This document shows positions 13,791-44,257 of a stretch of DNA of 45,983 nt, one piece after another. The stretch is from an uncultured Clostridia bacterium (GTDB lineage: Bacteria; Bacillota; Clostridia; Christensenellales; Borkfalkiaceae), in contig CANREJ010000011.1 in assembly GCA_947629665.1 (NCBI GenBank), positions 1 to 45,983 of the forward strand, given 5' to 3'. The notes under the pieces were generated by a model, which was given only the letters and a program-made list of their open reading frames with translations, made no database searches and had not been told where the DNA came from. Both the position numbers and the translations under genes were made by a program. Each line of letters begins with the position of its first letter. Position 1 is the stretch's first letter.

Positions 13791-14021
13791 CTCCCCTCAG
13801 TCTCGCTTTGCTCGACAGCTCCCCCCCAGAGGAAGGAGCCAAGGTGGTTAGAAGTCGCCTACTTTTCCTTGCCCTCTTCCGCCGCCGACGGGGGAGGGTG
13901 GCGACGTAGTCGTCGGGTGGGAGCAGAGTTTTGGTTTGTTGTTATACTCCCCTCAGTCTCGCTTTGCTCGACAGCTCCCCCCAGAGGAAGGAGCCAAGGT
14001 GGTTAGAAGTCGCCCACTTTT
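13791..14021 (+). repeat. Tandem 156-bp repeat units
   Basis: The core CTCCCCTCAG...GACAGCT starts at 13791, 13947 and 14103, exactly 156 bp apart, and a fourth core lies at 13198. In the first two units the core is followed by CCCCC..AGAGGAAGGAGCC and a GTGGTTAGAAGTCGCC segment. In the 13198 and 14103 copies it continues into the longer repeat instead. The units are non-coding. Confidence 0.8.
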
Positions 14022-14295
14022 CCGTGCCCTCTTCCGTCGCCGACGGGGGAGGGTGGCGACGTAGTCGTCGGGTGGGAGTTAGAGGTTTGGATTGTTGTTG
14101 TGCTCCCCTCAGTCTCGCTTTGCTCGACAGCTGTCTCACACGTTGTAAGGACAACAACGTGTTCGGGCACCACTCGCGCCTTTCTCTATGCGCTCGCTCA
14201 TCTCGCGCGGCAAAACAGCGCACTGTGCTGTTTTGAGAAGTCCGCGCTCGTCCCCCCAAGGGGGAAGAAGCCAAGGGTTGGAGAGGTGGGAGCGG
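14022..14295 (+). repeat. Long structured repeat, right copy (~274 bp)
   Basis: This is a direct repeat of 13118-13390 with scattered substitutions, chiefly around 14080-14100 and 14165-14190. The shared stems are kept. Together the two copies bracket the DUF559 gene and the tandem units. Confidence 0.85.
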
Positions 14296-23170: not shown

Positions 23171-23178
23171 AAATTTAC

Positions 23179-26100
23179 CTACCTTACAGTTTCTTCTTTT
23201 TTATTTTTAGGACGGCGGCAGAAAATTAATCCGCACGTCAGTATTACTACCTCGGCTGCTAAAAGCCCGATTACGGGAGCTATATTTATTACTCTGTTTC
23301 TTGGAATAAAGCTGCTGAATATCCTGATTACAGGTACAGGCTGTTCAATAAGCCCCGTATAGTTCTTTGTTTCTGCAATATACACACGCAAATAATATTC
23401 GCCTTCGTCCGCCCGGGAAATATCTCCCTCGAATTTTTGGGTGAGTTCCTCGTCCAGATAATACTCTATCACCGGCGTGCCGAATTTAGCTGTGGGCAAG
23501 TTGCTTTCGCTCAGGCTTTCGCCCTCGGTCAATTCGTCTACGTTTATATGCTGTAACCACTCATTCGTGGCCTGTTTAACGGTATATATACCGGCTGCGC
23601 CGTTATATAATTCCCCGCTCCACTCACCGCTGAAAGTTATTTCGTAGTTGGGATCGTCTTCCGCACCCACTATCGCATACGTATCGGCGTCGAGATAACC
23701 GTACTCGTTCGGAAAGGCAATTACGGACAAATCTATTTTAAGCACGTCGCCGTCGACCATGTCGAGAGGTTTGGCATAGGTGAGTTCCGCAAGTTCATCC
23801 GAATAGAAGCTCTCCTTATTCTCGATAGCCACAGTTACCTTTCTCTGTTCGATTGTGTATAGGGCCGTTTGGATATTGAGGTGATAATTGGGGTCTTCGG
23901 ACCAGCTTGCCACGTCTATGATGTATTCGCCCGCATTCTTGTCAAACGTATCTGTAAGTTTTATCATCAGCCCGTCGCCGCTTATAACAACGGAAGCGTC
24001 CTCAGGGAAAGTGGTTCGCGTGAGCGTGTAGCCGCCGTTCGGCCCGCCGTTGGGATCTATCGGCTCATTGCCGTATACGTTAGTTACATTTGCGATGGCC
24101 ACCGTGATTTCGCGGGGAACAACCTTATAGGTGCCGTTTACAGCCGTTATATCGTAGTTGCTGTTTTCAGTGTAGCCGGTTATTTGGATGGGAACGTCTG
24201 CAACGCCCATACCCGCGTGGAGATCGGCGCCTATTGTGATTTCAAGATTATCTCCGTTTACAAGCGCCTCACCGGGCAGGCTGTTGCGCGTTACTTTATA
24301 CTCCAAATCCTTTATGGCGTCGCCGTATTCCGAAGTTTTATCCTGTGCGGTGATTGTTATCTTGCGGGGATCCACGCTGTATGTTGCCGCGCCGTCATAC
24401 CCTTCGGGAAGAGGATTGTCAACGGTGTTCCAGTCGCCCGTAAACGCAACGTTATAGTCGGTGTTGTCAAACGTCGCAATAATGTAGTAGCTGCCTACAA
24501 TGCTCTCCGTGTTGGCGTTGGTTTGAAGGGTTATGCCGAGATCGTCGCCGTTTACTATTGCTTCACCTTCGAGTTCTGCGCGTTTGGCAGTCCATGCGCT
24601 TTGGTCGAGTTCGGGCTCGTCGCCGTATTCTCCGCGCCCGTTTTCGAGCGTAACCACGAGCTTTCTCGGAACTATGTGATAGTATCCTTCCACAAACGTA
24701 ACGTCGTAATTCGAATTTCTGTTGTAGCTGTCGATTTCTATTACGTAATCGTCCACATGGGATTGGGTGGTTACGGAACACATTGCAACAAAACCGAGAT
24801 CATCGCCGTTGACTACCGCATCGCCCGGAAGCGCTCCGGCGCTGCCCGGCGTACGGGTGAGCGTCCATTCGCCCGCAAGCGGCTTGATTGCGTCGCCGTA
24901 TTCGCCCGTTTGGTCATTAAACGTAAGAGTTATGCGGCGGGGCGTTACGGTATATACGCCTGTCTGCCATTCAATATCGTAGTTGCTGTCGGCAACATAG
25001 TCCGCACGGCTGATTACATATTCCCCAATGTTGCTCGTGTTGGTTACACTGCATGCGGCGGAAATTTTAAGCGATTCTTCGTCGCCGTTCACTATGCCCG
25101 CGCCCGGCTTAACCACACCGTCCACCTTCGAACGGCGGATGCTCGATATTGTACACTCCACAGGTTGGTCGCCGTACTCAGAGGTTTGGTTATCGAATAT
25201 AACCGTTATGAGTCTCGGCGTAATTCTGTAAATGTTTTGCGTAAGCGCATAAGCCTCGTAGTTGGGGTTGTTGCAACTATCGAAACTTATTTGATATGTG
25301 CCCACGTCTGCGGTTCTGTTTACAACCCTGCTGTCCACCGACAAAACAATTTTCAAATCCGCCTTGCTCTCGCCTTCTGCAAGCGGCTCGTAGGCGTACA
25401 GGTTGGAAACATTAAAGTGGCAATTTGCGCTCAGGTCGTAGTAGTCGCCGTATTCGTCCTCACGCTCGTTGGGGCTTATGATTATCTGCCTTGGATCGAT
25501 TTCGTATCTGCCTGCAACGTGATAGTAGCCGTTACCGTAAGCCATATCGTCCCAACCGCCCGTTATGGTAACTTTATAGTTGGGATTGCCCTCTGCGGAG
25601 GCCACGATTGCATAAAGACCTGCGTCATAGTGCCCCGTAGAATTGAGCGTAAGGTCGCTTTCGGTTATTTCGCCGTTGAGGTTTACGAGTTTTACAAGTT
25701 TAAAGGTAATAAACGCGTCGCTGTCCCCCGGCATAATACCTATTATCCGGTGCGTGGAGCGGTAACGCCCATTGTAGCTGCCGCCTGCAAGATCGGGCTC
25801 GTCTTCGCCGTAGATATGGTTCATGCTGTCGTTTATGGACACGAGCACCTGCGCTTCGGATACCTTGTATATACCGGCGCTCTCTATACCCTCAAATTCA
25901 CCGCCGGGCACGGCTTCCCATGCTCCTTTGAATACAATATCGTAATCGGGGTTATTATAGGTTGCCGTTATGGGGTAGCTGCCCACTTCGAGATAGCCGT
26001 TTGAATTTGTGTGGTTGCTTTGCCCCTCTATGGTGAGTTTAAGTTTCAAGTCGTCGGCGCCCACTACCGTAACGGTGTTTTCGCTGTTGTCGCCCACGTG

Positions 26101-29100
26101 CACGGCGGCCCATGCCGACAAGTCGGCGGCTAAATCTTTGGGAACGGGCGTTCCGTAGGCGATTGTTTTGGTTTCATCCACGCCCTGGTTTGCAATGGTT
26201 ATTTCAAGCTGTCTCGGGGTTATCCTGTATACGCCCGCATGCTCTTTGTCGGCGAGGTGGCCCTTGTGGTTTTCCGTATCCGAGCCCCAAGCGCCTATTA
26301 CGCGCAATGTGTAGTCCGAGGACGTTATGGAAACTTCTATGGGGTAATATCCTACGTGGTGTTTGCCCGCCCTTGCAATTACAAGGCCTATGGATTCGGG
26401 AGTATCGGCGCCCTGCATACCCTCGATGGTAACGAGATTTGTACCGTCGGCATACGTTGTGCGGGCGTTGAGCTCAACTTCCGTTTCGCCGTATTCCGAA
26501 GTTATAACGCCATCGTTAAACGTTACGGTGAGCACGGGAGGCAATATCCTTATAATACATACGTACTGGTAAGGGATATAATAGTTTTTGGCGTCCGCGC
26601 CGCCGGGATAAGGAGTGTCTAAACTATAAGTTATTTCGGCGAGATATGCCCCTGCTTCCCTTATGGCCGCATGCTCGCTCTTTTTACTTTGGTTCGCCCA
26701 GTCAAAATCGTACGTAGTTCCCGAATAGTTGGCCGCAAGCAGGTCGCCGTAGTTACCGCCTTTTACCAGCGGCGAATATACGCGCGTCGTGCTGTTGTAT
26801 TCAAAGTAAATTACGGGCACTTTCACTATTTGGGCTTTTTCGTTTTTGTTGCCGTATTCGTCTATGGCTTGGTTGGCCTCTATTTCCCACTCCAACGAAG
26901 TGGGATAGTCCATATCCTGCCAATCCTCAATCTGTTCGGCTCCCTCGTCCCATTTCCAATCAATGGAAATTTTCTTTGGAATAATATGTACGTAGTTATA
27001 AGTGTCAAAGAACCGAACAACGATATCGGGAGTATCCTTAACTGTAATTGTCAGAGTGTACGTATCGACTACAAGATAACCGCCCGTACTGCGCTGGAAC
27101 ACCGGGTTGACATCTATCGAAATTTCGCAATGATCGTAGAGATATTGCCGCCTGCTTTCGGGTGTGTCTCCTATCTGGTTGTTGTCGTCATGGATTTCCA
27201 GCAGTATGGAACTGTCCTTGCCGAGTATCCACTTTTTGAGCAACTCTTTAAGGTCTTCGCCGCCCGGCGCAGTTGCGGTAAGATCGTATTTATATATTCC
27301 GTACTCGAAGTACTTTAAGTTGCCGAATACGTTTTCCCTATCCCCCTCTACGGGCTCCCTGAGTTCTACTGTTATGTGCGCCTGGCTTATTACTATTGTG
27401 AGAGTAAATGTTGCCTCGGCGTGGTAAGGCGCCTTTATGGTTACATCAACCGTCCATGTACCCACGGCGTTTACCATGGGAGCATATTCTTCTTTTGCGT
27501 TTTCGCCGTATACAAAGCTTTGCTCTGCGCCCTCTACGTCGCCGCGTATTTTATCTGTGTAGAGCTCGCCGTTGAGCTTGAGGTTGCCGTACGTAACCTG
27601 TGTTTTTCCCACATAGAAGTCCTCGCGTTCGCGCGTGTTCAATTTGCCGTTTGCATAATACTCATTTTCTTTAATTATGCCGCCGGACATGCCGACTTTT
27701 TGCACATCGCCCGCAAATTGCAGGAAGTCTTGCGAAACGGCCATGGAATAGTAATTTTCAACGTTATATTCCGCGTGCCGGTTCCAATTGGCGGATACGT
27801 TGTTCTGGTGCACCGTGGCTTCCTTTATTGTGAATATACCCGCTGAATTCTTTGCCGCCTCGCCGTTTTTGCTCTTGTAGGTATCGGGCAGGTTTTCCGA
27901 AGATTCATCCGTCCAATCGCCCTTAAACGTTACGGAATAATTTTCCGCCATACCCGTATAGTTGTTGAATCCGAAGTAACCGACTATGGGATATTTACCC
28001 ACGGGCGCATAGTGGTTATCGCTCCAATCGTCGAGCGTTTTGCCGAGCGACAAGCGCAAATATTGTATATCGTCGGTAAGGAACAGGTGGGTATTGTAGT
28101 CTTCATTTGCAGTGTCCGCGCTTACGCCCGTATACTCCCATTCTTCACCCATATTTTCAAGTAAGGTGCTGTGGCCGAAAAGCCCCGAGCTTGCCGAATA
28201 TTCGCTGCCACCGTATACGCCTTCGAGATTTTCGAGTTTGACTTCTACCGTGCGCGGTGTGATGGTGTATAAGCCTGTATGTTCATTTAAGTTGTAGTCG
28301 TCCTCGGCGTTGCTGTTGCCGCGGATGAACACAACCGAATAGTTATCCGCATTGACAGCGGAAGCCTTCAAATCGTAGATACCCGCATACAAGCCCCTCT
28401 GCGTCGTAAGACTGCCCCTGTACTTTTCGTTCGAAGTACGGGGATCTGCCGAGGAGAATGTGTCGGTTACTCTTTCAAGCGTTACGCCCAGATTATCGTT
28501 AAAGACTATTGCCGGGCCGTCCCTGTCGGGAACTCCCACTTCGTTGAGGCCGTCAGGGTCGTCTACCCTGCGCCTTGCATACCAGTCTTTTTTAGTTGTG
28601 CTGATAAATACGGTGTAGCCGTAAACGCTCGACTGGGGTTGCAATACAATGAATATCCTTCTGGGCGTTACGCGGAATATGCCGTTTACGCCGTGCGTAG
28701 TAGTATCGTTTACAAAAGTTACTTCGTAGTTGGGGTTATCCCATGTACCCGTGATTGCATACTCGCTTACCGCCGACGTGTTTTTAACGTCGCTTGCGAG
28801 CGATATTTTGAGGCGGTCGCCGCTGTTGACCTGCCAATCCGCTTCGCGGGGATACCATTCTGCGGTGGAGTCGTCCTTTATTTTGGCAAGCGCGGCAACG
28901 GGGTCGGACAAACCGTTTTTGTCGAGGTAGTCCTGCCATTCGAATACATTTTCGCCGCTGTCAAAGGTATAGTCATCGCCGTACTCGCGCACAACCGTTC
29001 TTATAACCACGTTTATGGGCTTGGCTTCGATATGATATGTGCCTGCGGTTGAATTGTATTTGCTGTTATCGTCCGAGGAGAACCAGCTGCCCATCCAGCT

Positions 29101-32100
29101 TACCGAATAGTTGCGGTTGGCGTTGGAGTTTTTGTCGGCTATGGGGTGTGAGCCTTGAAGCTCTCCGCCAAGCTCCTCCCAAAGGGTTGCCCACAGGGGA
29201 TAATCGCCCACGGGGGATTTGGAGGTCGCCGAAGTGAACAGCATAAAGTACAGCGTATCGTCGCCGTAAATTGCCGTGCCGCCGATTGAAGATCTTGCCG
29301 TATACCAGTCTGTCAGTTCGGAAGAATCGTACGCGTTGGGCACGCTTACAGAACTGCCGTAATCGGTAGCGCCGTGATTGAGTATTGTTATTTGGACGGG
29401 TCTTGGCTCTATCGTAAACGTGCCCGCCGTGTTGTTGTATTTTTCCTCCACTTTGCATGTAGAGTACGTTGCCCTGTCATTATTCCAGCTTCCGCGGAAC
29501 GTAATGTCGTAGTCGTATGCGTCTTTTTCGTTATATTTGTAAGTTATGGCGTACCGGCCGGCGTCGGCAACGCTTGCGTCGCCTATTGCGCAGTAGAACT
29601 CAACTTCGAGTACAATATTGAGCCTTTCCTCGTCGCCCTTCACAATGGCGTCGCCGTCGCCGTTGGAGGTGGTTGCGGTGTAGTCATTATTCTTAAACGC
29701 CCCGTTACCCACTGTGGGTTTGTTCATCCACTCGTCGCCGCGTCCGCCGTAAACAGCACTTTGGTCGTTTACGTTTATTGTTATCACGCGCTTGCGGACG
29801 GTGTAGAGGCCCGCGCCCCCGCACTTGTTGCCGTTGGCGTTTACATAGTCGTCGGGTATACTACCCTTATAATTGCCCGCAAATACTATGTCGTAGTTGG
29901 CGATATCGTCGCCCAACGCAACGCCGTAGATAGCGTATCCGCCATCCCTTACGCGCAGCGCTCCTTTCACGAGGTCGTCATCGTTGCCGTTTACCTTTTG
30001 AACGCTGTATACGTTGCCCGTGGACTGCGCCTTTTTCATATACGAGCCGAGATACAGTTGAATTTTTACGTCGTCGCCATCGAGCAGGGCAGAACCCGTA
30101 CCCGTGCGGGTTGTGGGTATATAGTTGATATTCAGGTCGGAGGCTACGGTTGCCTTGTCGCCGTAAACGGAGTTTTGGTCGCTTATGGTAATGAGCACGT
30201 TGCGCTTAGTTATCATAAACTTGCCCGCGCCCGATCCGGCCTTTACGGTAACGTTATAGTTTTTGTTGCTCCAATCGGACATTTCTATTTCGTAGCCGGC
30301 AGCCTTATAGGGGAGTTTGCCGCCCGTGTAGTCTGCAAGTTTTAACGTAACGCCTACGCTTTCGCCTGCGATTATATTGCCGTCGGAAACCTTCCAGTCT
30401 ACGTCCTGTTCGGAGTGGATATTGATTGTTTCGCCGTATTCCGCAGACTGCTTCTGTATTTCGATTGTTATTTCGCGGGCAACTATCTCGTACTTGCCCT
30501 GCGCGGGATTGTCCGTATAGTTGCCGGTAAACGTTACTTTATAGTCGTCGTTGGAGCAGGTAGCCGAAATTGCGTAAACGCCCTTGGCCGAACCCGGAGC
30601 TCTTGTAAGGGTTATGCCCATTGCGGATTTTTCGTCAACTATAATCTTGCCGTCGTAGTGCACAACGCCTTTCAAATCCTCGTATGATACGGCGGTCCAC
30701 TCGGTGGGATCGGTGTTTTCCGTGTCGCCGTAGGTAACGGTTTTATCCTCTATGCGGATAGTTACCTTGCGCTGATCCACTTTGAGAGTTTTGTTTTCAA
30801 CGCGCACTATTTGATAATTGCCGTCCCGCGAGGTGGCGTTTATGGTGTATGCGCTTTCATTGTAGTGCAGATATCCCGCCGCCGAATAGGTTGCGTCCGC
30901 AAGCGAAGGATTAACTATATCTTCCGCCTTTCCGCCGTTTACAAGGGCTACGCCTTCCTTGCCGTCCCTTTTAAGCGTGTAAGCCGAGGGGCCCAAAATT
31001 TCGCTTGTAAGGTTATCCCTCGAAGCTTCGCCGTACATTACCTTGTAACTTGCGTTATAGGTTACAACAATTCTACGCGCGGTTATGGTATATGTGCCGT
31101 TTATGGGTAAAATCGTGTAGTTTGCGTTATCGCCCGTGAGGGGGATATTCGGGGCCGTTATGGGATAAGTTCCTACATTTGCGGCAGAGCTTGCCGTGGT
31201 GGTCATTGTAAGCGAAATACTATCGCCATCTATAACCGCCGTGCCGTTTGGATCGGAGGCAAGCGTGTAGGTAACGCCCCACGTGCTTTGGTCTGTGATG
31301 CCGTCGCCGTATTCGGACTTGACGCTTTCGGCGTTTGTGCCGAGGGTGGCGTTAATTATTCTGGGGGTAACCGTGTATGCGCCATGGGTGGCGTTGCTTG
31401 TGCTGGTGCCCGAAAAAGTTATTTCATAATTATCGCTGTAAGGCACTTCGTTGGAAGCGTTATAGTCGCTTCCGTTCCAGCTGCCCACTATGTCGTAAAC
31501 GCCCCTGTTGAGCTTATGAGAAGAGCTTTCCTTTCTGTCAATCCGGAAAGTAAATGTAAGCTCGTCGCCTTTGCAGGCGGTTACGTTTCTGTCGGTGCCG
31601 TTGGTGCAGATTGCGGTGTAGGTCAACGCGGCCTCCGCATCGCCGTATACGCTGGAAGCGGGGTTGATAGATACGGTTATTGCGCGCCTGTTTATCACAT
31701 ACGTTGCGTCCGTACCCTGCGAACCCGTAAACAGTACGGCGTAGTTATCGGTATCCGTGCCGCTCCATGTGCCGACTATTTTGTACCTGCCGGCGTTGGG
31801 ATATTTGCCGTCTGTAACCTTAACTTCGTTACCGTCCTTATCCTTTATGGTAAGGGTAATAAGTTTTTGTACCGTCTCCTTGTCGCCGGACAATATTTTT
31901 TCGCCCGAATCGATCCAATCGGAATCGGTGAGTGTGCGGAGTTCGTCGCCATAGGTGGAAGAACGGTCTATAAGGGATATGGTGAGCTGGCGTTGGGATA
32001 CGCTGTAAATGCCTACTTCGCCGTTATCTTCATCGCCTTCTGCATACCAGCCGCCCTTAAACGTTACGGTGTAGTTACTGCCGTACGTTGCCTTGTCCCA

Positions 32101-35100: not shown

Positions 35101-38100
35101 GGAGAGCTTTGCCAAAATGGGGTATTTGCCCACAATGTCGCCCTGCTTGGCAAGGGTGAAGATATCAAAATACAGCTTGTCGGAGCCGTAAATGGCGTCG
35201 CCTGTGCCGTTCAAAGGCGATACGGGCTGCCAATATATGCCGTTATTTTCGGCTGCCTTTTTAAGCACGCGGACTTTTTCGCCGTAGTAACTTTCCTCGT
35301 TGCCGAGCGGGTCGCCGTATTGGGCGGACTGTTCCAAAATTCGCACGGAAATAAGGCGTTTTGCCACTTCTAAAACGCCCGCGCCCTGTTTGCCGCTTGC
35401 AACTTCCATCAAAGACGTGCCATTATTTACGTCGTAGGCTTCGCCCACGTACGCCTGATAGGCCTTGTACGTGTAGTCTGCGGGCAAGTCGCTGCCCGTG
35501 TAATCGCCCGTAAATATTACTATGTAGTTTGAGTTGCTCCATGTTGCGGTGATATAGTAATTGCCGCCGAAAACATAGCTGTCCTTTTCTACATATTTAA
35601 GCTTTATGTCTAAATTATCGCCCGAATACAGAGCATAATTATTGCGCGTTTCTTTACCGCTTGCCGCTTCGTATTCATACTTTTTAAAGTTGTAGTTTTT
35701 AAAGGTTGTGTCAATTTCCCAGCCGACCCCTTGGGCGTTGTTGAGCGAGGGTGTTTCGCCGTAAACAACGGTCTGCGTTAAAATTTTAACGCCTATAACG
35801 CGGGCGATAATTTCAAAATAGGCTTCGGCGGTACCCGAATAGTTACCTCCGCCCGATATGTTGGCAACCGCTTTTTTTGACACGTTCACGTTGTTGCGGT
35901 AGCCTATTATGGTAAAGGAGTTATCCAAATCATCTATGAGTTCGCTGGAAGAAACTCCGTCTCCGTTATTAAATTCAATGCGGTTGCCATTAAGCGTTAT
36001 AACAACGGAATTTATTCTTGTGGGAACGGAAATTCCCTCGTACACAACCGTTTCGAGCGTGGCGTGAAAGTTATCGGCGAGCGTGGATATATCCACGGGG
36101 TTAATTACAAACTCCTGCGAGGCGTCGTAATACACGTAGCCCTCATCCGTGGAGTTGAACGCAAAGTTGCATACGGTGCAGGGCGTGAAGTTTTCGCTGT
36201 TTTTGCTGCCACTGGCGTCGTAGTTGCCGAGGAAGATATAAACCTTATATGTATCTGCGTTTTTGGGCTTTCCGCTTAAATCAGCTTTAAAGGTGTTACC
36301 CTTTTGATATTCCGAAGCCAAATCAAGGTTGTTAAAAGCTTGGTTAAGTACATTCTTGGTTGATAAATCCTTGGTGAGCTTTTTAGCCTCATAGGCAAGA
36401 TAATAGTGATCCTGCAAAAGCCCCCACAGCGTATCGCTATCCATTGACGAGTTGGTTGCCGTGAAGAAAGTTTCGCCGATATCAGGCTCCTGCGCCTGCC
36501 CGTTATAAGTTGCCGCGGCTATTTTGCCCGTGGAAAGTATTATGGGCGTTATGGTGTAGGTGTATTCTATTTCGGAAACGCCTTTATCTTCGCCCGATTT
36601 AAGTATAATGAAGTTGGCGTATTCGAAAGACAGCTTAAATTTATACTCGCCCGCGTCCTTGAACAGGCTCGCGTTGAATATATCCGCCGCGTTCGCGGGT
36701 GTACCGTCTATCAAATATGTGTTATCTTCGAATACGTTTTCGCCGTCCTCAAACTTATATCCGCCTACTTTAACTTCATACTTTTTGCCGTCCTTTTCAT
36801 AAGTTATGTTATAGCTTATGCCTTGGACGGAAATTTCGTTGGAGGACGAGAAAATCAAATACCATGCGCCGTCGGTCGTTGACGTGAAGTCGTAACTGCC
36901 GTCTTGGATATAGCCGTAGAAGTGGCCCTTGTTGTCGAATACCTGCGTGGTGTTGGGCTGGCTGATAAACACCGTTAAAGGCGTTATTTGCAAAATAACG
37001 GTGGATTTAAGCGCCTCGTCGGACGAGGGAGCGCCCTCGTTTTCCGTAAAGCAATAGTTATTTGCCGTTTCGCCGCAGAGAGTTACGGTTACGTCGTAAT
37101 AGCCCGCATAATAGGGCTTATTATCGGAAAGTCTGGCGTTTACAATTTTTGTACCGGGTTGCTTGGGTTGCCTTTCAGTATCACCGTTAACCTTATATTC
37201 CACGGTGTAGCCCGTGTCTTTTACGGGCGCGGGAGCCGTAGTGTTTACGGTAAATTTAATTTCGGGCTCCTGCGTTTTGCGGTTATAGGGCATATCCGCC
37301 AAGGGCTCAATTGAAAGGTGTGCGCGGTTGATTTTGTAGGAAAGCTCTTTGGTTAACCCGTCGCCAAAGATAAAGTTGCCGTTCTCTTTAAGCGTTACGG
37401 TATAGGTGTATGTGCCGGCGTTGGTGTAGTTTGCCATGCCGCCGAACGTTGCGGCTACACCGTTGCCGCCGTTCGCCGCAATCACGGGCGTATATGTTAT
37501 GGTTATGGAATATTCGCCGAAATCATACTTCCATCTTGCGCTGCCGTCGGTGTTGTCCGTAAGCGTGCCGGCGGTAAAGTTCTTGCGGTCGGGCGTTGCA
37601 ATACTGTCTGTGGGGACAGAGGCGGCAAAGCTGATATTGTGTTGGTGCGAAGCACCGTCATAGTTCAAATCGCCCGAATCGAGGGCTACGGTGAGCTTGG
37701 CGGGGTCGATTTTGAATTGGAACTTTAAGTCGGTCGAGCCGTAAATTTCCGTGTTGTCCGCATTTTGGAAAGTAACTGCGTAGTTGCCGTTAGTTGCGGT
37801 TATGCTATCTATGCTGTGTTTGCCGGCGTTTGCCTCCGTAAAGGCGGAATAAGTTATGCCGAGGTCGGAAATTTCTTCGTCTCTGTAACTGCCGTCTGTC
37901 TTTGTTGCGAGCGTGTTGCCGTCAATCCCCTCGGCAAGTTTGAGGGTAAGATACAGCGAAAGGCCGGGAGCCGCGCCCGTGTAGGTGAACGCGCTTTGAG
38001 TTATTTTTATGGTTATGGGGCGGGCTGTAACCTCGTATGTGCCCGTCTCCCACGTTACGGAGTAATTTCTTATGCCCGCGGGCGTGTTGGGCGTGGAGCC

Positions 38101-41100
38101 CGTTAAAACGTAGCTGCCAACGTTCAAATTGCCGCTTATTGCGGAAAGGCTTAAATTTTGGTTGACTATTACAATTTTGCCTATCAACGCGGTTTGCACG
38201 GCGCTGTCGGCGGGAAGTATTGCATCTCCTCCCTTTCCCCCGTCGCGGGTGGCGGTTATAGCGAATGTGGCAAGCGTGTTGCCGTAAACCGAGTTTTTGT
38301 CTGCGGGCGTAACGGTTATTGCACGGGGCGTAACGGTGTATTTGCCCGTTTTATAAGTGATATTGTAGTTATCGGTTATTGCCGTTTCGCTAATGTCGGC
38401 AATAGTGATATTGTATGTGCCTACGTTGGTGTGCGACACTTCCTTTATGGAGAGATGCAACGCATCGTCAAACGCACCTTGGTCGGCTTCGAGTATGGCT
38501 ACGCCGTCGTCAAGATTATAGGTTGCAGTGTAGGTTAAATCTACTATGTCGTCGCCGTATTCGCTGGATTTATCGTCGGCGGTAATGGTGATTCTGCGCT
38601 TTGTTACCTTGTAGGTGCCGGCTTTGCCGTTATATTCGCCCGCTTCCGCCCAATCGCCCACAAAGGTTATTGTATAGTTTGAAGATTTTGCGGGGTTGGG
38701 TTTATCATAGTCCGCAACGGCGCCCTGCGTGCCCTTTATGGCGTAACTGCCCACCTTTAAGGGCGCGGAGGCAATATTCTGCCCCGGGGTTACAAGCGAC
38801 AGGGTGATTATGGCGCCCAGATCTTCGTTGTATGCGGCGGTGTAGCTGCCGTCTGTATTCCAGCGGAGATCGGCAAGTTTGTCGCCGTAAACGGACGTCA
38901 TATCGACCGAGGATATACGCACGGTTACGGGGCGGGGCGTTATATTATATTCCGCCGTGTTGGTGGAAACAATTATATAGTTTGCGTTGGTAACTTCCTC
39001 TATTACTATATCCCAAGGGCCGCCGGTAACGTTTCGGGTTCTGTTTTCTGCCGTCCAAGGGTCGCCCTTGCCGTCGGCTATTTTTACGGTGTAAACGCTG
39101 TCGCCGTCCTTTATGGCTCCACCCGAAAGTTTGAGTGAGTTGTAGTTTGAAGCATCTGTAATTGCTTTGTAATATGAGTTACCGGTGATCTGTTCTTCGG
39201 TAAACGTGCCCGAGTAGTTTGCGGCGGAGGCGGAAAGCTGTTTTAATGTTTCGCCCGTTTCGCCGTAAACAACGCTCTTGCCCTGCGCGGTTATGCTTAT
39301 GGGACGGGGCAAAATATGCAATGTGGAAGCCTTGCCTGTAAGGGACACGCCTTCAAGCGCAAAAGCCCCTGAATAACTGCCCTTAAATACGATATTATAA
39401 TTGCCTGCCGCACCGCCGCCTACGGTTACGTAAATGGGATAATCGCCCACGTTCAGCTTGTTTGCGGCGGACAATTTACCTTCATAATCATAATGTCTTA
39501 GGGTATAGGAAAGCACGTCGTTGTTAACAATGGCGTCAGCCCCGTCCGTGGCGGCGCCGCTTGCGTCGGTTGCGTGCTTAAAGTGCCCGCCTATATAATC
39601 ATCGTCAATATTAAAGTAGCTTATATCCTCGCCGTAGATTTGATATACGTCGTCAAGATTTACAACAATATTTCTTGGCGTGATAGACACAACCCCGTCT
39701 ATTCTGCCGTTGTTTTTAACGCTTTTTGCGGAGTAGTTAAAGGTTACGTCGTAGTTGGAGTTGTCGTAGGAGAACATTGCGTCGTAGCCGCCGGATTTTT
39801 TTACGAACGAGCCGCTTGACGCAGACGTATTTACCACAAGGTTTAAGGCCTTTATGCCCGTTTGGGTTTTATTGGCCGTGTCCTCGGTAACGGCGTATTC
39901 CGTTATATCGCGCTCTACTATTACGGTATTAAAATCGAATCCCGCAAACACCTTTTGGGTGAGGTCTTCGGTCTCGATTTCATTGCCGTATTCGAAAGAC
40001 GCTTCGTTTGCGGTGATCTCTATGGGCTTTTTGGTGATTTCCGCAAGTACGGTAACGGGAATTTCGGCGTCTTCCGCAGGGGTAAGAGCCTTGGAAGGGT
40101 CCTCGGCGTTTACGTCGTACAAATAATAGTTGCGGAGTAAGCACTGTTCGGGATATTTATGATCTGCGGTGTGATGGCCGAAATTTGTGCCTTGCGAAGC
40201 CGCAAACTCGTCTATTTTTACGTTGAACGCCAACCTCTGCTGGCCCACGTCGGGCGAGGAGAAAACGCCCTCTACAATATTGCTGTCGCCGTCCGCTTTG
40301 GTAACGAAATCAATTTTCATGTAGGGCGAATCGGCAGGCATAATACCTGTCATGTTCGCGGTAAGATTTTCGGCCGAGAAGGTTATATACGGTGTGCCGT
40401 CATATACCTTGCTGATATTCGGTATGGAAAGGTTTGTAACCGTTATGCTTGCGCGCGTTATATTTATGGTGGCGTATTTGGGCTGGATATATGCGGTATC
40501 CATTGCGGCAAAAGGCAGGGGGTTCGACCCTTCGTTTTTGCTTTGACCTTGCGCCGTCGCCAAGTCAAGCTCAAACCTGTAACCGAATTGCGTTTTGGAA
40601 ACGTATTTTGCCTCGGAGGTGGTTGCGCCCTCACTGTCCGCGCTCGTTGTTATGGTCAACAAGGGCAACTGCCCCTTATCGGGAACCGCAGAAGGAATTT
40701 TTGCGTGCATTGTCGCGTCGCCGTCTTTTAATGTATAGGCGTCTTGTTCATTGCCGCCGCTTTCCATATAGGAATAGCTATCATAGTAGATATAATAAAA
40801 TCTACTGAAACTACTGCTGCTTTGATCGGGTTTCATCTTCCCGTTATCACGGTCGAGGACTATACGGATATCGTCCTTTCTGTCCAACCCGTTGTACACG
40901 AGGTCAACATAGGTGCCGTTACCGGAAGCGTCGATTTCGATATTCGTCCAGCCTTTCTCAACCATTTTGCCGCCGCCTGAGTCAATCATGGTGCGGTCAT
41001 AATATTGCCACGTTACTTTTAAAGTATTCTCGTCGTCCGTACCGAGGGCAACTATCCAATCGACATCGTCTTTGTCGGGGACAAGCGAAGTGCCCGCATC

Positions 41101-43665
41101 GGTGAACAGGAAAGCGTCAAGGAAGTTTAAAAGGCCGTTGGGATCCTTTAAAAACTCGCTGCTGTTAAACGTGGTGCCGCCGTTTGCATTGATTTGGTCT
41201 TTTGTGGGCTGTGCGCCAAATTCCTGTTCACACTGCTTTGCGTTTTCCTTGCCGTCGCCTTTGATTTCATACGAAGTTCTATCTTCCCAACCTTTTTCGT
41301 AGAAATTACGCATTATGTAGCCGGATTTTTCCGTGCCTGCGGCGGGAGTTACCGAAACTTGCGCATAATTTGTGGCAGATTGATATAAATAGCCCTGTAC
41401 CTTTATTTCCGGATATTGGTGCTTTGAAGAATTAAATAATATCTGTCCGCGGTTGTTGTTGTCGGTTACATTATTATTTTCATTGTCGTTAATTTTTTTG
41501 CCATTATAAACCTCATCGAAATCAGCCTCTGTATAGTGGTTATTTTTATAAGCATCCTGCAAATCACCCGATGAGACTCCGTCTTTACGGGGCAAAGTAT
41601 CCGTCGTAAGCGAAAGATACATGTTGGAAGCCTGCTTATGCTCTTCCGTGGCGGTTTTAAGCAGGCCCTCTACACCTGCCTTATTATAAGTTTCGGGCAA
41701 CTTTTCAAAAATGGCATAGTTATCCATAACTCTGGCGGGGCCGTTTAAATAGACGCCCGCGCTATTCTGGAACATATTTACGCCTGCGCCGCCAACATTT
41801 ACATGTGTTGCCAGCGGTTTCGGGTCTTTTTCTATTGGTTCTTTGGGTTTTCCGGTGCTTTCGTCAATTACAACTTGATTTATATTTCTGTATTCGCCCT
41901 TGGCTACGTTGTTTACAATACTGCCGCCGAAGAGTTTTAAAAAGCTGTTATAGTTTACGGATATGCAACCGCCGAATTTCGAGCAATAGTTATAGCTTAA
42001 TTCACCGCCGTATATACTGCAATATGTTTGTTGGAAAACGCAGATTCCGCCGCCTTCTACCGAATAATTGGCGTTGGGAGTATACGCTCCATCCACGGTT
42101 TTGTTAAAGGTTTCTACCTGCGCGGTATTGCCCTGCCATAAGCCGCCGAAAACGTTCAGCGTCATGTATGAATCCTGCGACAGATAGCCCGCGCCGCCCT
42201 TTAAAGCCGAGTTGTTGGTTATAGCCGCGTCGAATACGTTTACAACGCCGTTACCTACGCCGTAGAAAGCTCCGCCGTACATGGCTTGGTTGCCCGTTAC
42301 GTTGCCGCTGTGCAGGGTGAGTTCGGCACGCGCCCTTAAAGTGAAAGCGCCGCCTTTGGCGGAGTTACAGAAAGTGGTGTCGCTGCCGTAATACTCATTT
42401 GTACCTTCAACTACTTTGCCCGTACCGTTTTTGGAGTAGGCGCCCGTAATTTGCCCGGAGCCATAAGGATTATCCTTTGTGCCTGCGGTGCTGTCAAAAA
42501 TTTCCAGACGGGAATATTGGCCGAGCATAAAGCCCGAAGCAACGGTTGTTTTGTCAACTTCGTCGTCATTTGTAAGATTGCGGTCTATTTTGTGGCCGTT
42601 TAAATCGATAATAACATAGGTGTTATCGGGTATGGCAAGCCTGCCAAAGGAATATCCTTCCATGGCAGGACAGAAAGTGAATTGTTGATATTTTACTTCC
42701 GGGTTAAATTGCGTTTCATAGCTTAATTTTCCGGAACCATCCGCATTGACGTCAAATGTGGTACCAAGAACAATATGTTCATACGCTTTCGCCGCACCCC
42801 CGGTATCAACTCTGTGTAACGTCACGTTGCCTGTTACATCGGTTGCAACCCAATCGTCTTCAAGTTTAACTGCAATATAGCTATAATTGGGAGCCGTTTC
42901 ATTAAATATACGACCAAATTCGACAGGTTTCTTATTTGTTACTTCCTGCGCCGCAAATTGAACGTCCCATGTGTGGGTAAATTCGTTCTCTGCCGCTTCA
43001 CCGCCAAATTCTTTGTTATTAAATATCCCCGACTTGGAATTATAAGAAGCGGCAAGTATTGCGTCAGCCCAGGTGGTAGCCATTTGATAAGGAGTACCGC
43101 CTAAACTGAAATAGTTTACATTGTTCTCACCGCCGAAAGTGCCTTTTGTTACATTTAATTTGCGGGTTATGGTTTCTTTTGTTGCGGCAGTTTCATCGTT
43201 TGGCTTAACTTCTCTCTCTACGGTTATAGTTGTGCCGTTTTCGGGTGTGTTGTTTTTAGCCTTTATAAGTTTTATAGCCGAAAGATTGTCGTTATTCTTA
43301 ACATAATAGTTCATGGGCGGCTTGCGGTCATCGGATGCGCCGTGCATAACATGGCCGCCGTTATCAACAGGCCACATTGCCGCAACCTTTTGCTGATACA
43401 ACGGCGTATATCCGCCGTTTTTACCGTTCCAGCTGATAAGTGTACCGACCATGGAGTTTACGCCATGATAAGCAAGCGGGTTATCTTCCGGATCGTATAC
43501 GCCGCCGACTTGCGCAGTGGCTGTGGAAGCGTTGGCAACAAGCGTATTTGCGCCGGTCGCGCCCATAAGGACTGCGCCCAGCGTAACGCAGACCGCTAAT
43601 ATCAATGAGAATACCGCCAGCATCGCAGGGCGGAAATAATAATAGAATTTTTTAGAAGACTTCAT
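23179..43665 (-). CDS. Giant MBG-repeat surface protein (6828 aa)
   Basis: The single uninterrupted frame covers 45% of the window. It starts with an export signal (basic start, hydrophobic residues ~14-36). Residues ~350-620 look like a right-handed beta-helix with recurring GGAF/GGGI/GG.I turns and N/V ladder strands. From ~1070 to ~6700 there are about 47 units of the MBG/YDG type. Each unit opens with a strand such as ITPRKITVTI followed by a VYGD/EYGD/VYNG turn, and usually contains YNI or NYDVTF and a closing GxYTI. One stretch near residues 5270-5400 lacks the pattern. The C-terminus has a transmembrane helix (~6788-6812) and a basic tail CRRPKNKK, with no LPXTG, so it is membrane-anchored rather than sortase-linked. 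The ATG has AAGGAG six bases upstream. The likely role is a long surface stalk or adhesin. The ligand is unknown. Confidence 0.9.
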   Translation of the reverse strand: MKSSKKFYYYFRPAMLAVFSLILAVCVTLGAVLMGATGANTLVANASTATAQVGGVYDPEDNPLAYHGVNSMVGTLISWNGKNGGYTPLYQQKVAAMWPVDNGGHVMHGASDDRKPPMNYYVKNNDNLSAIKLIKAKNNTPENGTTITVEREVKPNDETAATKETITRKLNVTKGTFGGENNVNYFSLGGTPYQMATTWADAILAASYNSKSGIFNNKEFGGEAAENEFTHTWDVQFAAQEVTNKKPVEFGRIFNETAPNYSYIAVKLEDDWVATDVTGNVTLHRVDTGGAAKAYEHIVLGTTFDVNADGSGKLSYETQFNPEVKYQQFTFCPAMEGYSFGRLAIPDNTYVIIDLNGHKIDRNLTNDDEVDKTTVASGFMLGQYSRLEIFDSTAGTKDNPYGSGQITGAYSKNGTGKVVEGTNEYYGSDTTFCNSAKGGAFTLRARAELTLHSGNVTGNQAMYGGAFYGVGNGVVNVFDAAITNNSALKGGAGYLSQDSYMTLNVFGGLWQGNTAQVETFNKTVDGAYTPNANYSVEGGGICVFQQTYCSIYGGELSYNYCSKFGGCISVNYNSFLKLFGGSIVNNVAKGEYRNINQVVIDESTGKPKEPIEKDPKPLATHVNVGGAGVNMFQNSAGVYLNGPARVMDNYAIFEKLPETYNKAGVEGLLKTATEEHKQASNMYLSLTTDTLPRKDGVSSGDLQDAYKNNHYTEADFDEVYNGKKINDNENNNVTDNNNRGQILFNSSKHQYPEIKVQGYLYQSATNYAQVSVTPAAGTEKSGYIMRNFYEKGWEDRTSYEIKGDGKENAKQCEQEFGAQPTKDQINANGGTTFNSSEFLKDPNGLLNFLDAFLFTDAGTSLVPDKDDVDWIVALGTDDENTLKVTWQYYDRTMIDSGGGKMVEKGWTNIEIDASGNGTYVDLVYNGLDRKDDIRIVLDRDNGKMKPDQSSSSFSRFYYIYYDSYSYMESGGNEQDAYTLKDGDATMHAKIPSAVPDKGQLPLLTITTSADSEGATTSEAKYVSKTQFGYRFELDLATAQGQSKNEGSNPLPFAAMDTAYIQPKYATINITRASITVTNLSIPNISKVYDGTPYITFSAENLTANMTGIMPADSPYMKIDFVTKADGDSNIVEGVFSSPDVGQQRLAFNVKIDEFAASQGTNFGHHTADHKYPEQCLLRNYYLYDVNAEDPSKALTPAEDAEIPVTVLAEITKKPIEITANEASFEYGNEIETEDLTQKVFAGFDFNTVIVERDITEYAVTEDTANKTQTGIKALNLVVNTSASSGSFVKKSGGYDAMFSYDNSNYDVTFNYSAKSVKNNGRIDGVVSITPRNIVVNLDDVYQIYGEDISYFNIDDDYIGGHFKHATDASGAATDGADAIVNNDVLSYTLRHYDYEGKLSAANKLNVGDYPIYVTVGGGAAGNYNIVFKGSYSGAFALEGVSLTGKASTLHILPRPISITAQGKSVVYGETGETLKQLSASAANYSGTFTEEQITGNSYYKAITDASNYNSLKLSGGAIKDGDSVYTVKIADGKGDPWTAENRTRNVTGGPWDIVIEEVTNANYIIVSTNTAEYNITPRPVTVRISSVDMTSVYGDKLADLRWNTDGSYTAAYNEDLGAIITLSLVTPGQNIASAPLKVGSYAIKGTQGAVADYDKPNPAKSSNYTITFVGDWAEAGEYNGKAGTYKVTKRRITITADDKSSEYGDDIVDLTYTATYNLDDGVAILEADQGAFDDALHLSIKEVSHTNVGTYNITIADISETAITDNYNITYKTGKYTVTPRAITVTPADKNSVYGNTLATFAITATRDGGKGGDAILPADSAVQTALIGKIVIVNQNLSLSAISGNLNVGSYVLTGSTPNTPAGIRNYSVTWETGTYEVTARPITIKITQSAFTYTGAAPGLSLYLTLKLAEGIDGNTLATKTDGSYRDEEISDLGITYSAFTEANAGKHSIDSITATNGNYAVTFQNADNTEIYGSTDLKFQFKIDPAKLTVALDSGDLNYDGASHQHNISFAASVPTDSIATPDRKNFTAGTLTDNTDGSARWKYDFGEYSITITYTPVIAANGGNGVAATFGGMANYTNAGTYTYTVTLKENGNFIFGDGLTKELSYKINRAHLSIEPLADMPYNRKTQEPEIKFTVNTTAPAPVKDTGYTVEYKVNGDTERQPKQPGTKIVNARLSDNKPYYAGYYDVTVTLCGETANNYCFTENEGAPSSDEALKSTVILQITPLTVFISQPNTTQVFDNKGHFYGYIQDGSYDFTSTTDGAWYLIFSSSNEISVQGISYNITYEKDGKKYEVKVGGYKFEDGENVFEDNTYLIDGTPANAADIFNASLFKDAGEYKFKLSFEYANFIILKSGEDKGVSEIEYTYTITPIILSTGKIAAATYNGQAQEPDIGETFFTATNSSMDSDTLWGLLQDHYYLAYEAKKLTKDLSTKNVLNQAFNNLDLASEYQKGNTFKADLSGKPKNADTYKVYIFLGNYDASGSKNSENFTPCTVCNFAFNSTDEGYVYYDASQEFVINPVDISTLADNFHATLETVVYEGISVPTRINSVVITLNGNRIEFNNGDGVSSSELIDDLDNSFTIIGYRNNVNVSKKAVANISGGGNYSGTAEAYFEIIARVIGVKILTQTVVYGETPSLNNAQGVGWEIDTTFKNYNFKKYEYEAASGKETRNNYALYSGDNLDIKLKYVEKDSYVFGGNYYITATWSNSNYIVIFTGDYTGSDLPADYTYKAYQAYVGEAYDVNNGTSLMEVASGKQGAGVLEVAKRLISVRILEQSAQYGDPLGNEESYYGEKVRVLKKAAENNGIYWQPVSPLNGTGDAIYGSDKLYFDIFTLAKQGDIVGKYPILAKLSEAGADSAHANYEVKFDFTGGFVWGSSANAAYEDTTVAEDSYYRKAQKYDCPNEYKYGGSEMSAGILEIKPRELTVTVKDLSSVYGEELVNIDPVSETKPAERNGKFYIEKKNEDGVTLFEIDNVYRDNPDAPRVTMQLVCYSRGTTALVKGDNAGTYQIHVSAKSTDEVVANKNFNVTVVGSWNSTNEAKNNGTDGTYTIEPRKITVTVRDQQSIYGEELYSLDVAYTSDGSRYVYKVEFTKDSDQVGKVSGDPVISDEITFNFYKEGGNNANGVGFYNISYEVTAKGNTAKINNYDITWKSLKLKVDEKSKAEDIPVPALVDGKLEYVLVDTYNSEYLISPREITVTIQDMSVIYGEDKYNSDHTVSGVEYTTAFTGTEKQKDIYGREVTNNPLYTGDNLGLTFKLKDGLTLTENTKKLPVGKYALLASGVSTVSRKNYSITLIGNWADGDLPAGYETQAGIYEVVKRRISVHIKDQNWYTYNGAVPDKVLNTGHAGSFDFDKQGYLCGIDNDMIWEATDTLDYFATGLPIVGTKDAHDELGITFSLSHDGGPALKKDVGQYPIYASWTDTNYMIRFEGDWSWDESDCPTDYKYQDSSGNSFNNGAGIFTINPADVYVSISEKSSDYGKKVDIYNSDTLAVKDADYTVTGGSVYEGDNLNIKLTLGSENDGLLAEGKLGWQLAGYAITLANRGDTNPNYNIVEVADGVYTVDRLNITVNIENQESVYNGEEPTVNQTMWTVDDENKLAYFDKDGGAYKNTVNTVASLGYKTGTLGIVLAKEPSGYRWQKNGYRITGTCTNPNYIVTFKGEWSIDDDYNGQAGVFTIQKRKLKITIGDQRSVYNGTVFDSSVLDQNRYTITEWTNAPGGTEDSVTNAVVEGTSLSIRLYFGNPPVRNAGNYVIAGSCSNTDYEVEFTEGNFKVDKREVTVTINRQDKVYGDNIATFDNGWWTAVCTNDATHVAIASEDDTLGISLKVAYDDPGNLTNGYLNVGKYKIMPSWDKATYGSNYTVTFKGGWYAEGDEDNGEVGIYSVSQRQLTISLIDRSSTYGDELRTLTDSDWIDSGEKILSGDKETVQKLITLTIKDKDGNEVKVTDGKYPNAGRYKIVGTWSGTDTDNYAVLFTGSQGTDATYVINRRAITVSINPASSVYGDAEAALTYTAICTNGTDRNVTACKGDELTFTFRIDRKESSSHKLNRGVYDIVGSWNGSDYNASNEVPYSDNYEITFSGTSTSNATHGAYTVTPRIINATLGTNAESVKSEYGDGITDQSTWGVTYTLASDPNGTAVIDGDSISLTMTTTASSAANVGTYPITAPNIPLTGDNANYTILPINGTYTITARRIVVTYNASYKVMYGEASRDNLTSEILGPSAYTLKRDGKEGVALVNGGKAEDIVNPSLADATYSAAGYLHYNESAYTINATSRDGNYQIVRVENKTLKVDQRKVTIRIEDKTVTYGDTENTDPTEWTAVSYEDLKGVVHYDGKIIVDEKSAMGITLTRAPGSAKGVYAISATCSNDDYKVTFTGNYTDNPAQGKYEIVAREITIEIQKQSAEYGETINIHSEQDVDWKVSDGNIIAGESVGVTLKLADYTGGKLPYKAAGYEIEMSDWSNKNYNVTVKAGSGAGKFMITKRNVLITISDQNSVYGDKATVASDLNINYIPTTRTGTGSALLDGDDVKIQLYLGSYMKKAQSTGNVYSVQKVNGNDDDLVKGALRVRDGGYAIYGVALGDDIANYDIVFAGNYKGSIPDDYVNANGNKCGGAGLYTVRKRVITINVNDQSAVYGGRGDEWMNKPTVGNGAFKNNDYTATTSNGDGDAIVKGDEERLNIVLEVEFYCAIGDASVADAGRYAITYKYNEKDAYDYDITFRGSWNNDRATYSTCKVEEKYNNTAGTFTIEPRPVQITILNHGATDYGSSVSVPNAYDSSELTDWYTARSSIGGTAIYGDDTLYFMLFTSATSKSPVGDYPLWATLWEELGGELQGSHPIADKNSNANRNYSVSWMGSWFSSDDNSKYNSTAGTYHIEAKPINVVIRTVVREYGDDYTFDSGENVFEWQDYLDKNGLSDPVAALAKIKDDSTAEWYPREADWQVNSGDRLKISLASDVKNTSAVSEYAITGTWDNPNYEVTFVNDTTTHGVNGIFRVTPRRIFIVLQPQSSVYGYTVFISTTKKDWYARRRVDDPDGLNEVGVPDRDGPAIVFNDNLGVTLERVTDTFSSADPRTSNEKYRGSLTTQRGLYAGIYDLKASAVNADNYSVVFIRGNSNAEDDYNLNEHTGLYTITPRTVEVKLENLEGVYGGSEYSASSGLFGHSTLLENMGEEWEYTGVSADTANEDYNTHLFLTDDIQYLRLSLGKTLDDWSDNHYAPVGKYPIVGYFGFNNYTGMAENYSVTFKGDWTDESSENLPDTYKSKNGEAAKNSAGIFTIKEATVHQNNVSANWNRHAEYNVENYYSMAVSQDFLQFAGDVQKVGMSGGIIKENEYYANGKLNTREREDFYVGKTQVTYGNLKLNGELYTDKIRGDVEGAEQSFVYGENAKEEYAPMVNAVGTWTVDVTIKAPYHAEATFTLTIVISQAHITVELREPVEGDRENVFGNLKYFEYGIYKYDLTATAPGGEDLKELLKKWILGKDSSILLEIHDDNNQIGDTPESRRQYLYDHCEISIDVNPVFQRSTGGYLVVDTYTLTITVKDTPDIVVRFFDTYNYVHIIPKKISIDWKWDEGAEQIEDWQDMDYPTSLEWEIEANQAIDEYGNKNEKAQIVKVPVIYFEYNSTTRVYSPLVKGGNYGDLLAANYSGTTYDFDWANQSKKSEHAAIREAGAYLAEITYSLDTPYPGGADAKNYYIPYQYVCIIRILPPVLTVTFNDGVITSEYGETEVELNARTTYADGTNLVTIEGMQGADTPESIGLVIARAGKHHVGYYPIEVSITSSDYTLRVIGAWGSDTENHKGHLADKEHAGVYRITPRQLEITIANQGVDETKTIAYGTPVPKDLAADLSAWAAVHVGDNSENTVTVVGADDLKLKLTIEGQSNHTNSNGYLEVGSYPITATYNNPDYDIVFKGAWEAVPGGEFEGIESAGIYKVSEAQVLVSINDSMNHIYGEDEPDLAGGSYNGRYRSTHRIIGIMPGDSDAFITFKLVKLVNLNGEITESDLTLNSTGHYDAGLYAIVASAEGNPNYKVTITGGWDDMAYGNGYYHVAGRYEIDPRQIIISPNEREDEYGDYYDLSANCHFNVSNLYAYEPLAEGESKADLKIVLSVDSRVVNRTADVGTYQISFDSCNNPNYEAYALTQNIYRITPRLITVIFDNQTSEYGDQPVECTISSIRRSKVDGVVKPGAGIVNGDEESLKISAACSVTNTSNIGEYVISRADYVADSNYDIEWQTGVYTVTPRRITLTFNDQTGEYGDAIKPLAGEWTLTRTPGSAGALPGDAVVNGDDLGFVAMCSVTTQSHVDDYVIEIDSYNRNSNYDVTFVEGYYHIVPRKLVVTLENGRGEYGDEPELDQSAWTAKRAELEGEAIVNGDDLGITLQTNANTESIVGSYYIIATFDNTDYNVAFTGDWNTVDNPLPEGYDGAATYSVDPRKITITAQDKTSEYGDAIKDLEYKVTRNSLPGEALVNGDNLEITIGADLHAGMGVADVPIQITGYTENSNYDITAVNGTYKVVPREITVAIANVTNVYGNEPIDPNGGPNGGYTLTRTTFPEDASVVISGDGLMIKLTDTFDKNAGEYIIDVASWSEDPNYHLNIQTALYTIEQRKVTVAIENKESFYSDELAELTYAKPLDMVDGDVLKIDLSVIAFPNEYGYLDADTYAIVGAEDDPNYEITFSGEWSGELYNGAAGIYTVKQATNEWLQHINVDELTEGESLSESNLPTAKFGTPVIEYYLDEELTQKFEGDISRADEGEYYLRVYIAETKNYTGLIEQPVPVIRIFSSFIPRNRVINIAPVIGLLAAEVVILTCGLIFCRRPKNKKEETVR
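23560..40470 (-). repeat. Array of about 47 diverged MBG-type coding repeats
   Basis: Units range from roughly 75 to 140 residues and are recognisable by PR.ITV....SVYGD-like openings. They are diverged in DNA sequence, unlike the 87-bp repeats downstream, so the array looks old and functionally constrained. A run near residues 1980-2600 uses variant openings such as YTGAAPG, YNRKTQEPE and YNGQAQEPD. The count is by eye and could be off by a few. Confidence 0.75.
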
Positions 43666-43734
43666 ATATTCTCCTTATAAACAAGCGCCTATATTGTTTA
43701 TTGATTAAAATGTTTTCGATTAAATGTTTTTGTG

Positions 43735-43793
43735 GGGCAGGAGCGACATTCATAAGCTCCTGCCCTTTTTGTATAGCCGTAGGTATACAAAAA
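43735..43793 (-). promoter_or_regulatory. Tandem leader hairpins upstream of the giant gene
   Basis: Read leftward there is an AT-rich 10-bp stem (TTTTTGTATA/TATACAAAAA, 43766-43793, 8-nt loop), then a 10-bp GC stem (GGGCAGGAGC/GCTCCTGCCC, 43735-43765). The order and the flanks (ACGCC before; CTGCCCCA, AAAAACATT and then ATTTTA after) recur in front of malE at 7535-7582. The hairpins lie 70-128 bp before the giant ATG, inside its predicted leader RNA. Read rightward, the GC stem is followed by TTTTT. Confidence 0.65.
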
Positions 43794-43939
43794 ATTCGGC
43801 GTCATTATCTGAATTTTTGCGGACTGTATCGGATTTTAAAAATCCCGGCCGTCCAAAACAGATATATGTATTATTTTTATGTTTTGCGCGCGCCGCGCGC
43901 AATACCATATTTTATTATATTATACACTATAACATTTAT

Positions 43940-43968
43940 AATTTACTACTGTACAAAGACAAAGTCAA
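43940..43968 (-). promoter_or_regulatory. Candidate promoter of the giant-protein operon
   Basis: Leftward, TTGACT (43963-43968), a 17-bp spacer and TAAATT (43940-43945) form a plausible sigma-A promoter, with an A/T-rich stretch upstream. It implies a leader of ~265 nt that includes the tandem hairpins. No TTTTCGAAAA box is present, so the starch regulator probably does not control it. Confidence 0.5.
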
Positions 43969-44257
43969 CTTCTGCGAAAAAAAATCGAATTTTGCATAAA
44001 TTTTACATTTTTTGTCCCCTGTTTATGTTAATAAATTTCTATTTTATTGTTTAAACTCACAAAAATAAACGGTTTTTATTGATAAAAACCAAGATTATGC
44101 ACGTTTTTTGGCGTTTTTTGCATAATTTTCAGGCTTATTATATCACATATTTATTATTATTTAAATAGCCGACGCCGCAAAAACGCAAACCTTAACAATT
44201 CTTCACGAATATCCCGAAAGGCGTACCTGACTGTTATTTTTGCCTTTTAATGCAACA
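43969..44257. other. AT-rich intergenic stretch, no gene seen
   Basis: The stretch is strongly A/T-rich. GGTTTTTAT/ATAAAAACC at 44071-44090 is a short dyad with a 2-nt centre. I find no open frame with a ribosome site and no recognisable RNA gene. Confidence 0.5.

Follow-up and report, generated by a model that had tools for sequence, protein, structure and literature searches.

The window, a stretch of 45,983 nucleotides, is the whole of contig C11 in an assembly of 1.86 Mb (94 contigs, 91% complete). Its minus strand, on which the gene parts and the 5' leader described below also lie, carries two adjoining genes: one for a predicted giant surface protein of 6828 aa (23179..43665), whose ATG is 3' of AAGGAG and which has an orthologue of 8180 aa, and one for a partner protein of 835 aa (20663..23170), whose family recurs behind giants in relatives. 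The partner starts 8 bp past the giant's stop codon, and this stop codon is included in TAAGGTAGG, which was read as a Shine-Dalgarno-like sequence for the partner (23173..23181). Positions 234-20328 read as a starch-use locus encoding an ABC sugar transporter and amylase- and pullulanase-like enzymes, together with a lipoprotein-like protein of 997 aa that carries Flg_new repeats. A 155-bp repeat (2.2 copies, 94% matches) was observed at 13791-14132. The sugar transporter and amylase-like enzymes encoded by the neighbouring genes could point to the giant as a carrier or scaffold in starch degradation, but this is very improbable, as the orthologous pair in another genome (G014) has different upstream genes and no carbohydrate-binding or dockerin family was found.

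The giant frame runs from its ATG through 6828 uninterrupted codons, which agrees with the intact 20.5-kb frame described in the first-pass annotation, where the strand was not given. Because the other two sense frames contain 425 and 372 stops and another species carries the orthologous frame intact, a chance frame was excluded. The longest exact direct DNA repeat within the gene was 18 bp, and a collapsed assembly is therefore unlikely. The assembly is a 94-contig metagenome assembly made without long reads, and the partner gene holds exact repeats of 59 bp, both of which could speak for an assembly or annotation artefact; given the short repeats of the giant and its intact, colinear orthologue under purifying selection, chance frame and collapsed repeats were rejected and the probability of an artefact is negligible.

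The 5' leader upstream of the frame (43666..44030) contains several hairpins and is conserved: aligned over 376 columns with its counterpart in the orthologue, it has 76% identity. One stem, GGCAGGAGC/GCTCCTGCC, is replaced by GGCTGGAGC/GCTCCAGCC in the orthologue, with one compensatory pair. A search of Rfam at gathering thresholds gave no match in the window, the leader included.

The hydropathy profile of the giant showed an N-terminal peak at residues 7-44, a strong C-terminal peak at residues 6790-6819, and two weaker internal peaks (1815-1834 and 5702-5721). The first belongs to a signal-like start (residues 1-47; 43525..43665), and the second is a C-terminal membrane helix followed by the basic tail RRPKNKKEETVR (helix and tail, 23182..23298), a segment that is near-identical in the orthologue. 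No LPXTG-type motif was present in the C-terminal tail. The sortase family PF04203 had no match in the genome of the window (94 contigs, 91% complete), while the same search was positive in three of 14 control genomes; sortase anchoring of the giant was rejected on this basis. The export signal and the C-terminal helix with basic tail in place of a sortase motif, both proposed earlier, were thus borne out. The helix and basic tail, kept in the orthologue, are predicted to serve as the surface anchor, with a predicted surface location of the giant.

An MBG-type array occupies residues 1213-6697 (23575..40029), as delimited by Pfam MBG_2 and by an HMM iterated from the giant's own units, and consists of 39 strong units interspersed with degenerate stretches. 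The strong units had a mean length of 108 residues and covered 4229 residues. Two degenerate parts of the array, at residues ~1989-2621 (35803..37701) and ~5282-5710 (26536..27822), gave weak unit matches only, and further degenerate-unit-like stretches were found at residues ~1090-1212 and ~6698-6780; a weaker 40th match of the own-unit HMM fell within the head (residues 455-541). The array had previously been counted as about 47 units, a number that is possible if the degenerate stretches are included, with 39 standing as strong units. MBG_2 (PF18676) was the only Pfam family matching the giant, in one stretch of the first half (50.5 bits) and five of the second (165.6 bits; curated cut-off 25), which upholds the assignment of the stalk to MBG repeats. 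The units are strongly diverged from one another, with a mean pairwise identity of 30% (maximum 50%) and a mean identity between adjacent units of 31% (maximum 42%). A likeness of MBG pairs to an antifreeze protein in the PDB sequence search was weak (E 0.02) and was set aside.

The head (residues 330-700; 41566..42678) is beta-helix-like by pattern, with a lag of 26-27 residues. This lag was the strongest in the window's head and in three related heads, that of the orthologue among them. It exceeded chance expectation for two of these relatives, whereas 109 of 500 shuffles reached it for the window's head and 65 of 500 for the orthologue's. Searches of Pfam, NCBIfam, and PDB sequences gave no match for the window's head, the single PDB hit having an E of 0.34, and the longest alignment with the heads of other giants, the orthologue excepted, had 27% identity over ~270 residues. 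The beta-helix-like head of the first-pass annotation therefore holds as a pattern, but the lag is not beyond chance in the window's head and no family match accompanies it. By analogy with known stalked surface proteins, the head is probably adhesive.

The orthologue, found in a genome of the same genus (G014:C20), is colinear with the giant from signal to tail, with near-identical start and end. The two proteins share 75% identity, with a dN/dS of 0.31 over 6734 aligned codons. The orthologue alone carries an in-frame block of 1309 residues; this block is no recent duplication, since the identity of its best matches elsewhere is only ~26%. Along the giant, dN/dS was 0.35 in the first 330 residues, 0.21 in the beta-helix-like head, and 0.16-0.55 in the array. 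The partner gene had a dN/dS of 0.125 overall and of 0.048 in its core domain, the strongest constraint among the parts measured. The strong selection claimed earlier for the giant is thus supported only in part, as the purifying selection on it is weaker than that on the partner. The dS against the orthologous pair was 0.84-1.40 in the first 1213 residues of the giant and 0.98 in the partner, and it dropped to 0.30-0.61 from residue 1213 on, which suggests a more recent exchange between lineages within the array.

The partner begins with a membrane helix (residues 15-50; 23021..23128) that is inside-positive in its charge pattern, and from these charges the protein is predicted to be single-pass, N-out/C-in, with its main part facing the cytoplasm. 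The helix is followed by repeats at residues 60-370 (22061..22993), read as three Ig-like copies from a Big_3_5 match of 33.3 bits that falls just under the cut-off of 35.5; a similar near miss was DUF2274 for the partner on contig C25. Next come a core domain of 148 residues with a predicted YdhG/YjbR-like fold (21596..22039), a Glu/Pro-rich linker encoded by 6.3 copies of an 87-bp repeat (20954..21502), and a C-terminal tail that resembles the N-terminal domain of RicT in a profile comparison (20666..20884). When 62 members of the core domain were searched against Pfam, no family appeared in more than two of them at E ≤ 1, and the best match was SAM_PNT (E 0.0025, one of 62 members). The core domain had 7-11% identity with YdhG/DUF1801 and YjbR/DUF419 and no convincing Pfam match to them; unlike these, it is membrane-anchored and occurs in one to three copies per protein. 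No Pfam name exists for the partner family. The C25 partner gene (L011 3-1082) is broken at the contig end within a repeated domain, and an ORF on C55 (L029 9560-10537) is its possible continuation.

Six further matches of the core domain lie on five contigs of the same genome, and one of these may continue another beyond a contig break. The domain was present in all 25 genomes of the same genus, and sampling 396 genomes of the order gave 194 with it, from 49 of 142 genera (own genome counted). Across a phylum-wide sample of 299 genomes, the window's own genome was the only match; among the 298 without a match, the 20 listed belong to other orders, and nine of these 20 share the class of the window's genome. 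A collection scan with the core domain detected 288 relatives, from which 80 loci were retained, most from MAGs named Lapin-, with 83 partner ORFs, of which 77 had upstream sequence and were testable. A partner ORF was counted as paired when the directly upstream ORF ended in a membrane helix and was at least 1000 aa long or 5'-open. By this definition 37 of 77 partner ORFs were paired, compared with five of 402 control ORFs of at least 250 aa picked by length alone (Fisher p 2.7e-28). The intergenic gaps of 35 of the 37 pairs were from -7 to +39 bp, and the remaining two were 65 and 132 bp. These counts supersede an earlier one from a cruder gene caller, which kept 66 of 83 partner genes and paired 28 of them against a background of 3/596. 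The first-pass annotation treated the giant alone; the partner gene beside it, the genome's further giants, and the spread of the family through the order went unnoticed. In the literature, as far as our partial coverage extended, we found no description of the giant and partner as a pair.

The partner could instead be co-transcribed with an ordinary fibrillar adhesin that sits on its own helix, and have an independent job with no contact to the stalk. Consistent with this, the remaining 40 of 77 testable ORFs did not pair, and some lay behind unrelated genes; the family is therefore wider than the pairing and has other jobs. Some giants also have no partner alongside, and the core domain occurs in proteins that lack a membrane helix. 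Against this stand the adjacency of 37/77 versus 5/402, the matching of helix types described below, and the pairing with giants of 11 of the 14 ORFs that carry a RicT-like tail (two of the 14 had no upstream sequence). Overall, an independent partner is possible but doubtful. Proteins with the partner domain and no membrane helix were seen in L028 (17596-19401, C18), L071, and L072, and in the last two they were read as lying ~470 bp behind a spoIVA-like gene. In L176 and L177, partner-domain ORFs were read as ending in a ribosomal protein L15-like stretch.

Membrane helices were compared in 44 pairs, comprising the 37 from the pairing test, the window pair, and six from its own genome and relatives. 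The charge step was inside-positive in 44/44 giants and 43/44 partners. Sequence distances among giant helices correlated with those among partner helices (r 0.87), the highest value in 5000 permutations being 0.27. Genetic linkage alone gives matching helix types, which may be held against contact, and linked inheritance would explain the correlation as such; what the comparison adds is that unlike helix types each stay with a partner type of their own. Among the 25 pairs whose partner helix is of the window's type, every giant helix had Gln (22) or Glu (3) near its middle, and the partner helix had Gln in 23; in the window pair and its orthologue, the giant residue is Glu and the partner Gln is lacking. 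A polar residue was present in the helix core of 34/44 giants and 28/44 partners. Polar residues within helices often mark helix pairing, and those observed here suggest that the giant and partner helices may pair.

The genome encodes further giant frames, of at least 7720 aa on C25 (running off the contig), ~3530 aa on C35, at least 2483 aa on C21, and at least 2053 aa on C73. MBG_2 matched in 27 of the 41 genomes searched, among them 19 of the 25 congeneric ones. Among the matches listed, frames longer than 6000 aa were present in at least six of these 25 genomes (own, G006, G014, G017, G022, and G024), and the longest were of 10128, 9231, and 8183 aa. The partner arrangement recurs behind frames of 10127, 9231, 8180, at least 7720, 4879, 4591, and 3519 aa. 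In the stretches examined (L080, L081+L082, L083+L084, L087), no partner lay beside the giants of G024, G022:C212, and G009. These partnerless giants share a motif, (D/E)(D/E)GF..D, in the tail after the helix, which perhaps defines a second anchoring class. The neighbours of the giants in L013 (C35, 1473-18581), L014 (C21, 3-13145), L093 (G006:C25), and L092 (G017:C3) are an ABC ATPase, a multi-pass protein, and a protein of 1050 aa; the only Pfam matches in these loci were the C35 ATPase and, in C21, Big_2. The ATPases of C35, G006, and G017 were read as lying directly 3' of the giant and having an N-terminal hydrophobic segment, and the giants preceding the ATPase in C35 and G006 as having a lipobox-like start.

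The C-terminal tail of the partner was compared with RicT (YaaT), which we take to be the PSP1 family, using a profile of the RicT N-terminal domain built from PSP1-family genes of relatives (nine sequences from 14 loci). All 12 tails matched the profile by HMM with an E of 4.1e-7 or better, the best of 2000 shuffles reaching 0.05, and hhalign gave a probability of 97.5% (E 5.8e-12, one template). Searches of Pfam, NCBIfam, and PDB with the tail did not retrieve RicT; the best match was to Kelch motifs (E 0.019, nine of 12 members). Nor did the tail profile match a RicT in the window's own genome. There is no PSP1 domain after the tail, where the partner ends, and the genome has a separate PSP1 gene. 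In relation to RicT/YaaT as presented in the accessible part of its description (PMC10470536), the partner is alike in its tail, which gave a 63-column alignment with the N-terminal domain of the relatives' PSP1-family genes, and it differs in having no PSP1 part, in its membrane anchor, and in its place behind surface proteins. Any link of the pair to RNA processing would follow from this likeness. At membrane-bound RNase Y, the tail may be in contact with RicT, mimic it, or compete with it, and so tie stalk status or the 20-kb mRNA to RNA turnover at the export site, as part of a new trans-envelope adhesion apparatus; we regard this as a speculative and quite unlikely scenario.

The RicT-like tail might also speak for a contact sensor, in which stalk tension or ligand binding would be passed through the helix pair to a signalling partner and adhesion would be secondary. 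The cytoplasmic part is constrained far beyond the stalk (dN/dS 0.048 vs 0.31), and the polar residues within the helices would fit such a role; however, a known output domain such as a kinase or cyclase was not found in the window's partner, and we consider a sensor unlikely.

We favor, with slightly better than even confidence, a two-gene unit of a fibrillar adhesin and a dedicated trans-membrane partner, a complex and function that we infer from gene order and sequence. In this two-gene unit, the giant would be exported by Sec and halted in the membrane by its C-terminal helix, and the array would form a long rod holding the head outside the cell wall, where it could attach to other cells, to fibre, or to glycans of the host. 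The helix of the partner would pair with that of the giant. The cytoplasmic part of the partner, in which one to three YdhG-like domains are combined with a Glu/Pro-rich linker and, for some members, also a RicT-like tail, would hold, cluster, or sense the stalk from inside, and thus either replace the covalent wall attachment of sortase systems or report on the stalk.

The giant by itself is a large protein of the fibrillar-adhesin type, and what is new is the combination of its helix anchor with an inner partner that matches it, adjoins it, and belongs to a family without a name. Fibrillar adhesins, as described in the accessible part of PMC9210967, have a stalk presenting a distal N-terminal head that is sometimes a beta-solenoid. 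The giant resembles them in its great length, export, repeated stalk domains, and predicted surface anchoring, and differs in having a C-terminal membrane helix as its anchor and a partner gene next to its own, in a genome with no sortase match. The available text of PMC8201768 describes the stalk of CdrA as made of MBG_2 repeats and Periscope proteins as varying in stalk length through highly similar repeats; the stalk length here also varies, from 6828 to 8180 aa between orthologues, but the units have ~30% identity, and the difference in length, seen between species, consists of a single old block of 1309 residues. Apilactobacillus kunkeei encodes several surface proteins of 3000-8000 aa (Giant1-5) in a genome of 1.5 Mb (PMC12863079, as partly available). 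These giants are similar in being multiple large surface proteins with within-gene recombination and, in Giant1-4, beta-solenoid heads; the same partial account gives them SH3b-like C-terminal ends, no predicted membrane helix, and alpha-helical stalks in Giant1-3, and it describes no partner gene.

The RicT-like tail would represent an unexpected and directly testable link from surface adhesion to RNA processing. The wider question addressed is how Gram-positive cells that have no sortase hold stalks of several hundred kilodaltons. A stalk with one helix and a matched inner partner would be a recurrent and testable answer to this question, within one order of uncultured gut Clostridia.
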